This document shows, in pieces, positions 51,601-57,485 of a DNA stretch of 64,000 nucleotides. The DNA is from Rhodospirillaceae bacterium (GTDB taxonomy: Bacteria; Pseudomonadota; Alphaproteobacteria; GCA-2731375). Below the pieces are notes generated by a model that worked only from the letters and a program-made list of their open reading frames with translations, was not told where the DNA came from and ran no database searches. The stretch is from the NCBI GenBank assembly GCA_018660265.1, contig JABJKS010000031.1:62001-126000 (forward strand), read 5' to 3'. Every line of letters begins with the position of its first letter. Position 1 is the first letter of the stretch. Both the position numbers and the translations under genes were made by a program.

Positions 51601-52736
51601 ATGCTGGCGGCGCAAACCTATGACGGCCACCAATCCCTGCACGATGATGCCCAGGCACAAGGTCTTGGCTTTAAAGCCGCGCCCATAGAAGGGCCGACGC
51701 ATTTCAGCCAATTCGTGCCGTTGCTGCAAGATCTTTGGGTTATACCACCTTGCAATGATAGGGACCCATAGAGATCATCTCAGCAGTCCCTCGGGTAGGA
51801 GTGATGGTGCAGTCGATGTGGGATATCGTCAAGCCTTCACGACGCCCTCCGAGGGGCTGCTGAGATGACCCGAAGGGCGCATTTTGGGAGCTTTCGGATG
51901 GCGTCACGCGCACCTAACGATACACCGCATCGCGTCGGCGCACGCTCCTACCCGAAAACTCCCAATATGCGTCTCTAGGGGTCCCTATCATTGCAAGGTG
52001 GTATTATGCCTGGTTCGAGACCGGCTGCCTGTCGGCCCATTTCCGCACGATGGTGGTGGAGGGGGAGGAAGTCCGCGCATTTGTTGAACCCAGCAGCGCG
52101 GATGATGGCTTGGTGCGCATAGGTGCCGATAAGACGGATGGCGGGGAGGTCCTTCGTGGTACCGCGTCTGTTGGCGGGGCGGGGGAGACGGAGTTGGAAC
52201 GCCGTCTGGCGGGCCTGCGCCCGGCGGATAACCTCGTGATCCTCGAACATCTATCCGTTGGCCAAAAAGGTGCGGTGCCCGAAATGGTGCGCATGGATTT
52301 GGATCAGCATATGGGTGATCTCTATCCGTTTTCCCTGGCCGAAAAACTTGCAGTCATCACCGAAAACTCACCCTGGTACAGCGGTCCTTCACCCTGGGGC
52401 GGGGCCATTATTCCGTTGGAGATGGTCACGGTCCTGGCGCAATACACATCCCACAGTGCTGGGATGCAGGGCAAGGGCCCGGCCATTGGCCTATTCGCCG
52501 ATCTGGAAATCCGAATGCTCAAGGGCCCTCTGATGGTGGGGCGGGACTATTTGATAAAGCGGGAGATCGTTGCGCTGTCGGAAAGCCGACGGACGGAATC
52601 ATATTGGGTGCGCAGCCAGATCACCGACCCGGACACGGGTGATGTGCTGGCGGCGACGTTGCTGAACCATGCGGTGTTGAAGGCTTCGTATGCTGACTAC
52701 GCAGATGAATACACGCGTTTGACAGCCGGTACCTAA
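51601..52736 (+). pseudogene. Hotdog/MaoC-like domain protein, split by a MITE
   Basis: The 5' part (51601-51741, MLAAQTYDGHQ...EGPTHFSQFVPLLQDLW) and the 3' part (from about 52005, YAWFETGCLSAHFRTMVVEGEEVRAFVE onward to 52736) belong to one protein of about 290 residues, resembling double-hotdog dehydratase/thioesterase-like families. A 263-bp MITE separates them and brings stop codons. After removing the element and one plausible target duplication, the frames differ by one base, so a further small change has happened. The downstream part keeps good codon structure, which suggests recent damage. A start could also be TTG 51574. Confidence 0.75.
51742..52004. mobile_element. MITE, 263 bp, with 32-bp terminal inverted repeats
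   Basis: The left end ATACCACCTTGCAATGATAG continues to 51773. The right end (51973-52004) is its reverse complement with one mismatch (CCCATAGAG against CCCCTAGAG). Direct TTA or shorter flanks are consistent with a target duplication. The interior has a nested hairpin: TCATCTCAGCAGTCCCTCGG near 51775 pairs with CCGAGGGGCTGCTGAGATGA near 51850-51870. No transposase is encoded, so it is non-autonomous and would need a related element elsewhere. It lies inside the hotdog gene. Confidence 0.85.
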
Positions 52737-53695
52737 TCGACCACCTGCTCGTTCAAGGCTTCGATCACTGCCTCGCCGTCACGGCCATAGCGGGATTTGT
52801 TGCCCCGGCCCTGTTGTTCCAGATAGGCCCGGTTGAAAACGGCATAGGCCCCGCATTTGGTGCAATCCACGTCGTTGCCGTAACAGCAGAACGGCTTTTC
52901 GAATTGCCCGCCATCACCCATATAGAGGGGCAGGGTATCCCGGCGCAGGATACAATTTTCACCGTTTTCCCCGGTAGATTCCAGCGCGACATCGGATTTC
53001 ATCATTTCCAACGTGGGGATGTGGGATTTGACCACGTGGGGGTATTGCTTCTTTAGGGCAATAACCCGGTCCAGCACCCTGTCCCGTTCCTTTAGGTCCT
53101 TCCAATCCAGACCCGTCTGATCGTTTTTGACAGGCACATAAAAGCTGAAGGCGACGCCATTAATGGGCCATTGGGAGACTTCCGTCAGAAATTCCTCCAG
53201 CCCCGGCGCATTCTGCCGGGTCACGGCCATTTGCAGCATGACCGTGGTGCCGTCTGTTGGGTCCCTATCGAACACCGCCTTTTTGACTTTATCAAAAACC
53301 CCTTCGCCCCTGATCGGATCGTTCAACTCCATTGGTCCATCCAGGGACACGGTGACCAGATGGCCGGGGACCGAAGGGATGCCATAGGTACCGTTGGTGA
53401 CAATGGCGCTTTCGGGAAACAACTTGGTGGCCTCCAAGACCATGTCCTTGCGGATCATGGGCTCGCCACCCATGAACAGCATGGAGCGGATGCCGTGTTT
53501 GTCCCGCAGGATTTTCAGTTGATGCAGCATGGTGGCATCGTTCATCTTGTCGCGGGGTGCCTGTGGGTTGTTAGCCCGAAAGACGAAGCAGTGGCGGCAA
53601 TCCAGGTTGCAGACGTTGGTAACGTTGACCAAAGCGTGGGGGTATTGATCGGTGCCGAAATCCGTTGGATCCGTTAGTTGTGTCTGATCTGCCAT
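52733..53695 (-). CDS. Radical SAM protein
   Basis: A 320-residue radical SAM enzyme. The [4Fe-4S] site is C-x3-C-x2-C in VTNVCNLDCRHCFVF. GGEP is in LFMGGEPMIRKD, and strand motifs IVTNGTYG and VTVSLDGP follow. Near the C-terminus extra cysteines (CCYGNDVDCTKCGAY) suggest a second cluster of SPASM-like type, although short. The reaction is not identifiable. The gene runs opposite to the SDR cluster, and its end overlaps the last bases of the hotdog gene by 4. No peptide precursor gene was seen beside it. Confidence 0.88.
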   Translation of the reverse strand: MADQTQLTDPTDFGTDQYPHALVNVTNVCNLDCRHCFVFRANNPQAPRDKMNDATMLHQLKILRDKHGIRSMLFMGGEPMIRKDMVLEATKLFPESAIVTNGTYGIPSVPGHLVTVSLDGPMELNDPIRGEGVFDKVKKAVFDRDPTDGTTVMLQMAVTRQNAPGLEEFLTEVSQWPINGVAFSFYVPVKNDQTGLDWKDLKERDRVLDRVIALKKQYPHVVKSHIPTLEMMKSDVALESTGENGENCILRRDTLPLYMGDGGQFEKPFCCYGNDVDCTKCGAYAVFNRAYLEQQGRGNKSRYGRDGEAVIEALNEQVVD

Positions 53696-54617: not shown

Positions 54618-54631
54618 CGCGTAGCCCTTTT

Positions 54632-54735
54632 CGGTAACCCCGCTATCCGCTCGCCAAATGAATGTCTGGCCAGACGGACCGGTGGTTTTGCGTCCCGCCG
54701 TTTCCGACGGTTTGCCATTTCGTGGTCGCTTACCG
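54632..54735 (-). promoter_or_regulatory. Class I cyclic-di-GMP (GEMM-I) riboswitch upstream of the Sel1-repeat gene
   Basis: On the minus strand the conserved core reads AATGGCAAACC, stem CCGTCG with GAAA tetraloop and CGGCGG, then GGGACGCAAAACCACCGG, and after a hairpin (GTCTGGCCAGAC) the 3' element ATAGCGGGGTTACCG. These match the GEMM-I consensus, including the GNRA tetraloop, the CAAA/GGGACGCAAA junction and the terminal TAGCGGGGTTACCG seen in the Vc2 aptamer. The closing stem P1 is CGGTAA (54735-54730) with TTACCG (54637-54632). Only 14 bases separate it from the start codon, so control of translation initiation is likely. Confidence 0.9.
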
Positions 54736-55796: not shown

Positions 55797-56468
55797 TCAA
55801 TCAGGCGGCCCTACCAGATCGGCGATGGCGTCGGCCCAGGCTTCCGGTTCGAAGCCGCGGGAACCGGCCACAGTCTTGAAACGGACGATGCCCTGGCCGT
55901 CGATTACATACAGCCTCTCGGGCAGGGCGTTATAAAGCTTGTCCGCCTGATCCGTCATATCGTCCAGTAGCATGGGCATGGCCATGTTCAGGCGAAGGGC
56001 GCAGACTTCGGCAATATCGGCCCGTTCTTCAATGGTGTTCGGTGTATTCAGGATGATGTCGTCATCCAGGTTATGTTGCACCTGCCAGCCGTCATCAGGG
56101 TGGGCTTCCTGGATATAGACGCAATAGAAATCCATCCGGTCGTTGAACTGTGTCGCAATTTCGTTCAGCCGCACGGACTGAATTCTGAAGGGCGGTCAGG
56201 TGTAGGAGCCGAAGATCAGGCCCACGGGCCGGCCGCCGGCGTCGGCAAAGCGCGACGACAGGCTGATCATCTCGCCCGTACGTTTGCCGCTCGGCGTCAG
56301 TAATTCCAGGCTGAAGTCCGGTGCGGCATCACCCACATCAGGCGCCGCCTCCTCGCGCGCCAGGCGTTCCGAGCGCATGGCGTTATATTGCGCCGGCGTC
56401 ATGAGCATTTTGGCCCAGGCCTCGGGCGGGATCTCGCGCCAATCCGCCGGATAACTGATCTCTGCCAT
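55797..56468 (-). CDS. Deiodinase-like thioredoxin-fold selenoprotein (UGA read as selenocysteine)
   Basis: A 223-residue protein if TGA at 56198-56196 is decoded as selenocysteine (Sec91). Before the TGA: DVGDAAPDFSLELLTPSGK and GLIFGSYT. After it, in the same frame: PPFRIQSVRLNEIATQF, then DFYCVYIQEAHPDDGWQ, and a full thioredoxin-fold C-terminus. The FGSYT-U-PPF context is the catalytic site of iodothyronine deiodinase-like proteins, in which bacteria commonly have Sec or Cys. ATG 56468 has GGGAGGA 6 bases upstream. Reading it as two separate genes leaves the second half without a ribosome-binding site. The sequence cannot rule out a plain nonsense mutation. A redox role on a small substrate is inferred. 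Confidence 0.85.
56164..56182 (-). promoter_or_regulatory. SECIS-like hairpin after the in-frame UGA
   Basis: On the mRNA, 13 bases after the UGA, TTCAG pairs with CTGAA. A bulged T and the pairs CC/GG lie inside, closing a GTGC apical loop. The bulged U and the GU in the apical loop recall the minimal SelB-binding element of E. coli fdhF (bulged U, GGUC loop), although the loop is about four bases further from the UGA. Bacterial SECIS elements are poorly conserved in sequence, so this is suggestive only. Confidence 0.5.
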
Positions 56469-56532
56469 TATGTCCTCCCTCAATTATTTCCCGATTCTAC
56501 GTCGAAACGGGTGAGGGAGCTACAGCAGTGAT

Positions 56533-57351: not shown

Positions 57352-57368
57352 CTTATGCGTCTCCTCCT

Positions 57369-57485
57369 GAGATAACTCCGCTATCCTTTGACCTGCATCA
57401 TACTGATGTTTTTCTGGGTCAGTTAGGACCGGTAGTTTTGCGTCCCGCCGTTACCGACGGTTTGCCATTTCTTGGTTCGCACCCC
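57369..57485 (-). promoter_or_regulatory. Class I cyclic-di-GMP (GEMM-I) riboswitch upstream of flagellin
   Basis: The minus-strand core AATGGCAAACC is followed by stem CCGTCG-GTAA-CGGCGG (a GNRA tetraloop, one G-T pair) and GGGACGCAAAACTACCGG, and the 3' half of P3 is seen as GGATAGCGGAGTTATC. The core is nearly identical to the copy at 54632, differing mainly in the tetraloop (GTAA against GAAA), the loop of P3 and the P1 strands. P1 is weaker here (GGGGT with ATCTC). The aptamer ends exactly where the AGGAGGAG ribosome-binding site of flagellin begins, which favours translational control. Confidence 0.9.

Follow-up and report, generated by a model that had tools for sequence, protein, structure and literature searches.

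A deiodinase-like gene of a Rhodospirillaceae bacterium with an in-frame UGA, a covarying bacterial SECIS hairpin and a candidate redox-partner cysteine

The window analysed here is a stretch of 64,000 nucleotides from a Rhodospirillaceae bacterium (GenBank assembly GCA_018660265.1, contig JABJKS010000031.1, positions 62,001 to 126,000), and it contains, on the minus strand, a deiodinase-like gene (55797..56468, terminal TGA included) whose 223-residue product is predicted to carry selenocysteine (Sec) at residue 91. The frame runs from an ATG at 56468 to a terminal TGA at 55799-55797, and its sole internal TGA, codon 91 (56196..56198, minus strand), gives a joined protein with FGSYT-U-PPF where the frame is interrupted. 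A Shine-Dalgarno-like GGGAGGA (56473..56479, minus strand), read directly from the sequence, lies 4 nt 5' of the ATG. The first-pass annotation had described two same-frame open reading frames parted by a single TGA, the downstream one without a ribosome-binding site of its own; both points stand, as the two form one frame (56468-55797) and no Shine-Dalgarno sequence is visible in the window sequence before GTG 56174, the earliest candidate start of the downstream half. Under standard annotation such a gene would be cut in two or dropped. An 8-bp inverted repeat (CTCCCTCA..TGAGGGAG) spans the Shine-Dalgarno sequence (window 56532-56469, minus strand, 5' of the ATG); a hairpin over the ribosome-binding site was considered and set aside, since it is present just in the window and, as a similar repeat, in homologue L065.

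Homologues were drawn from relatives, the class and genome contigs. Column 91 is TGA in 27 of 27 close homologues with an intact active site, from many genomes, and because the same codon is TGA in every one of them, the internal TGA is not a product of chance. Two remote homologues also have TGA at this column and the remaining homologues have Cys, with TGT or TGC at codon 91 in the next nearest homologues after the TGA group (L049, L062). Throughout the wider alignment the column holds Sec or Cys only, save in the copy from species G003, which is broken by mobile DNA; a UGA is thus found at a Cys column, as is characteristic of a bacterial selenoprotein, and the earlier expectation that homologues would align nothing but Cys or Sec here agrees with the intact sequences. 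Nei-Gojobori counts (purpose-written script; six close sequences, 15 pairwise comparisons) give dN/dS values of 0.09-0.34 upstream of the TGA and 0.06-0.18 downstream of it, from which we conclude that purifying selection acts on both halves of the gene. In the 3' half, the two alternative frames contain 1-10 stops.

Downstream of the UGA, the mRNA can form a hairpin, CAGUC-CGUGC-GGCUG (56166..56180, minus strand), that begins 15 nt 3' of the UGA and has five pairs, its apical loop CGUGC starting 20 nt after the UGA; the stem is 5 bp across homologues and 7 bp in the window sequence. Among 28 distinct sequences, 99.3% of hairpin cells are paired, three of the five pairs have changes on both sides, and the covariation score is 0.447 versus 0.131 in shuffles, none of 500 of which scored as high. 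Hairpin partners slid out of register pair in just 14-44%, and the state of the stem has changed at least 8 times on the protein tree. Many of these changes are synonymous in the protein: the third base of a Leu codon tracks the first base of a Gln, Lys or Glu codon (CAG..CTG, AAG..CTT, GAG..CTC), and CAA..TTG occurs in place of CAG..CTG, with both codons synonymous. In the window and its nearest relative, Ser TCC stands where the rest of their group has Ala GCC, and Arg CGG where it has CGC, a joint change that retains the pair as U-G. The published bSECIS model specifies a loop of 3-9 nt, a stem of 4-16 bp, a G within the first two loop positions and a distance of 16-37 nt from the UGA (PMC13188914), and the hairpin agrees with it in loop, stem, G position and spacing. 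Folding energies are -7.0 kcal/mol for the 39 nt after the UGA and -9.7 kcal/mol for the 49 nt from the UGA; against the published-model threshold of at most -7.5 the energy is borderline, the 39-nt value falling slightly short. Single-sequence folding of the hairpin was no better than that of shuffles (z about -0.4); because single-sequence folding alone is no proof, the case for a SECIS rests on covariation, and by that sequence evidence the hairpin is, both in kind and in position, a bacterial SECIS.

The genome to which the window belongs (121 contigs, 97% complete) encodes SelA (578.6 bits, cut-off 268), directly adjoining SelB (430.9 bits, cut-off 242), as well as SelD (391.5 bits, cut-off 125) and a tRNA-Sec (66.1 bits) with anticodon UCA by ARAGORN. 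The apparatus of a bacterial selenoprotein is therefore present in the same genome; the first-pass annotation had made recoding depend on selB and selC, and selA, selB, selD and tRNA-Sec all score above curated cut-offs. Because selD carries an in-frame TGA of its own (motif GGGUGCK), the number of selenoproteins encoded in the genome is probably two or more. Across genomes, tRNA-Sec scores form two groups, at least 66 bits and at most 55 bits, the lower of which was taken as other long-variable-arm tRNAs; tRNA-Sec so defined is present in 18 of the 20 TGA-form genomes versus 0 of 7 with the nearer Cys forms, and it occurs as well in three genomes whose Cys forms are remote. The two TGA-form genomes in which it was not found (G002 and G011) are both draft assemblies. 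In one genome (G126, contig C7) the tRNA-Sec (382948-383038) lies 0.8 kb from a deiodinase-like gene (381578-382144), and in three others (G222, G311 and G388) within about 4 kb of one. The window's assembly, G000, also holds a second SelD domain, in a 787-residue open frame without an in-frame TGA (contig C97, 58106-59017; L021).

Two ways of explaining the internal TGA without selenocysteine were weighed. A pseudogene, or a Cys or Trp codon turned into TGA through mutation or through a sequencing or assembly error, would find a parallel in the decayed or interrupted copies of the same gene in three genus members (G003, G009 and G010); this account is refuted by the conservation of the same TGA across 27 homologues, by purifying selection at least as strong on the downstream half as on the upstream half, and by the covariation of the RNA hairpin, so that its probability is negligible. 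It is also highly improbable that the locus encodes two separate proteins or that the UGA is read through with an ordinary amino acid, by a near-cognate tRNA or under a reassigned code. The downstream half does offer GTG 56174 as a candidate start, but this codon sits within the hairpin loop, without a visible ribosome-binding site, and the split into two proteins would sever the thioredoxin fold at its active site. Ordinary read-through is opposed by the non-Sec homologues, which have Cys and not Trp, Arg or Gly, and by the complete Sec apparatus, and TGA is not generally reassigned, because the deiodinase-like gene itself ends in TGA. We conclude from these sequence comparisons that the mid-gene "stop" is almost certainly read as selenocysteine.

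The predicted protein matches PF00837 (T4_deiodinase) over residues 16-207 with 93 bits (gathering score 27; E 2.3e-26), and in a search with a profile built from 29 homologues, mouse Dio3 (4tr3, E 6e-25) and Dio2 (9h48, E 3.8e-23) come far ahead of all other solved proteins, in support of the family name that the gene had been given at first reading. An AlphaFold2 model built from ten sequences (mean pLDDT 80.6) superposes on Dio2 with Z 18.1 (rmsd 3.2, 175 residues) and on Dio3 with Z 17.4 (rmsd 3.1, 170 residues), and Foldseek ranks Dio3 and Dio2 top as well. The next structural matches (Z about 15.4), ResA/DsbE-like thiol oxidoreductases and the 1-Cys peroxiredoxin AhpE, share the thioredoxin fold but score lower over shorter alignments than Dio2 and Dio3; ResA/DsbE have a CxxC, whereas the window protein has a single Sec. 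The NCBIfam model NF038285 (deiodinase_rel) is matched over residues 36-215 with 172 bits, but this is below its cut-off of 250 bits and the model's 168-position N-terminal part is missing here. As judged from profile searches and the predicted structure, the gene encodes a thioredoxin-fold enzyme that belongs to the deiodinase family, and we hold of its product with high confidence that it is both a selenoprotein and a member of that family.

Aligned to 4tr3, residues S88, T90, U91, Y118, E121, H123 and W128 take the places of Dio3 Ser167, Thr169, Sec170, Tyr197, Glu200, His202 and Trp207, with the codons for Y118-I-Q-E121-A-H123 at 56100..56117 (minus strand). T90, U91 (Cys counted as Sec), Y118, E121 and H123 do not vary across the 29 aligned rows, S88 and W128 differ in a few of the distant ones, and A122 is likewise invariant in the homologue alignment (A2). 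The catalytic Ser, Thr, Sec, Tyr197, Glu200 and His202 of Dio1-3, which papers on Dio2 and Dio3 place in a hydrogen-bond network or proton relay (PMC11592359, PMC7506546), are thus all present. P143, P183 and A201 align with Dio3 His219, Phe258 and Arg275, for which a part in forming the thyronine site or in binding there has been proposed (PMC11592359, PMC7506546), so the protein has neither the second His of Dio1-3 nor their Arg/Lys to which thyronine binding is ascribed by proposal, and the accessory Cys168 and Cys239 of Dio3, discussed as resolving residues, are replaced by Y89 and M164. The window protein therefore shares with the vertebrate enzymes the thioredoxin fold, the S-x-T-U-P-P-F motif and the Tyr197, Glu200, His202 and Trp207 equivalents, but differs from them in the residues just named and in its SECIS, which is bacterial in type and lies within the coding sequence.

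A candidate resolving residue for Sec91 is Cys156 (codon at 56001..56003, minus strand), which no Sec protein of the clade lacks (27 of 27, counting that of the window). Since it occurs in every Sec protein of the clade and is the sole other Cys, besides Sec91, in ten of the 27, Sec91 and Cys156 are a probable redox pair. Two remote Sec proteins (L051, L052) are without Cys156 and have a Cys at Sec+3 instead, the Cys form L062 is without it and has a Cys at -3, and the Cys forms L092-L096 have none of these three. This distribution makes it reasonably likely, though well short of certain, that Cys156 resolves the oxidised selenium. In the mechanism that we propose, SelB with Sec-tRNA(UCA) would bind the hairpin 3' of the UGA and insert selenocysteine at codon 91, the components and the RNA element being those identified in the sequence. 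Sec91, placed where a helix begins, would then attack an electrophilic substrate as the selenolate, presumably supported by Ser88, Thr90, Tyr118, Glu121 and His123 as in Dio2 and Dio3, and the conservation of Cys156 suggests that the oxidised selenium would be resolved as a selenenylsulfide and afterwards reduced by cellular thiols.

The substrate is probably not a thyronine, because the proposed thyronine-site residues are not conserved, and a peroxide, a disulfide or a halogenated aromatic is more likely. That the selenoprotein is a true iodothyronine deiodinase is improbable: Dio2 and Dio3 are its nearest solved structures, and its active site and loop keep the Ser, Thr, Sec, Tyr, Glu, His and Trp of Dio, but both the thyronine-site positions (Pro143, Pro183, Ala201) and the accessory Cys positions (Tyr89, Met164) are substituted, and thyroid hormones are not expected in bacteria, as argued in PMC1088965. 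Deiodinase function in the strict sense is not supported. A Sec-dependent reductive dehalogenase acting on halogenated phenols or other marine halogenated compounds would accord with the invariance of the Dio catalytic and proton-relay residues and with the occurrence of the family in marine metagenomes (PMC1088965, PMC2398784); we regard it as possible but unlikely, as no dehalogenation genes were recognised among the neighbours and the same fold suits peroxidases and thiol oxidoreductases too. Still more tentative, and rather doubtful, is the proposal that the UPPF/C156 clade may constitute a class of Sec-Cys enzymes in marine Alphaproteobacteria that reductively dehalogenate environmental non-hormone compounds, combining the Dio catalytic network with a resolving Cys in a new position. 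The protein is best read as a Sec-dependent thiol oxidoreductase, peroxidase or dehalogenase and not as an iodothyronine deiodinase, the best-supported account being a Sec-dependent thioredoxin-fold oxidoreductase with a putative Sec91-Cys156 pair. A bacterial Sec-containing deiodinase homologue without the thyronine-site residues could reveal the ancestral chemistry of the family.

Sec-containing bacterial deiodinase-like proteins have been known in marine bacteria since 2005; four sequences were described from the Sargasso Sea (PMC1088965) and 22 from the GOS survey (PMC2398784), in keeping with the remark in the first-pass annotation that such proteins are known from surveys. Current reviews list the family with PF00837 and the motif UxxC, as functionally uncharacterised (PMC9312934, PMC13188914). 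The window gene resembles these proteins in PF00837 membership, an active-site Sec or Cys, a bacterial SECIS and its occurrence in marine bacteria, but its clade has U-P-P-F without a Cys at +3 and has Cys156, a difference drawn solely from the UxxC motif of the reviews. The gene is a well-supported addition to a known family, and represents at most a subgroup without separate description in the cited surveys and reviews. Beyond the first reading, the analysis adds the SECIS hairpin, the candidate partner Cys156 and the missing thyronine-site residues, making this a clear example of a bacterial selenoprotein akin to the vertebrate deiodinases, in which the SECIS covaries and the candidate partner is specific and testable.

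The genomic neighbours of the deiodinase-like gene differ between clades and so give no hint of its substrate. A radical-SAM gene (52733-53695) was considered as a partner and rejected, as it follows the deiodinase-like gene only within the genus (shared synteny) and did not turn up near the more distant homologues examined. No homologue was found in phages and viral contigs, and plasmids gave one remote match (26% identity). In species G003 the orthologue is broken exactly in the UGA/SECIS stretch (L076 75-401, L075 8685-9617, L074 2296-3885), with a tyrosine integrase beside the 3' half and an unrelated IS-like sequence beside the 5' half; a mobile element targeting the SECIS was considered and set aside, as the junctions showed no common core repeat and an integrase search of the genus gave no second case. 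A 3' fragment on a 4-kb contig of the window's assembly (C112; L074) was likewise rejected as a second gene copy and is probably mis-binned, because the contig is a near-exact match to the end of G003 contig C11 and duplicates a neighbourhood that C91 also carries. Decayed or truncated orthologues occur in G010 (L078, 6265-6477) and G009 (L079, 5000-6013), and, as these remnants indicate, the orthologue has been lost repeatedly within the genus; both genomes retain a second Sec paralogue, about 40% identical. Elsewhere, L071 has a tandem pair of Sec deiodinase-like genes (224-871 and 874-1536), each with its own TGA and SECIS. In the window, a flagellin gene (57351-56533) precedes the deiodinase-like gene, which starts 65 nt after it in the same orientation, so the two may be transcribed together. 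Two c-di-GMP-I class riboswitches, matching RF01051 (60.4 bits) and RF03167 (62.9 bits), lie on the minus strand 5' of the flagellin gene (57368-57476) and 5' of a Sel1-repeat gene at 54617-53874 (54629-54725), and both recur in the same neighbourhood in relatives.
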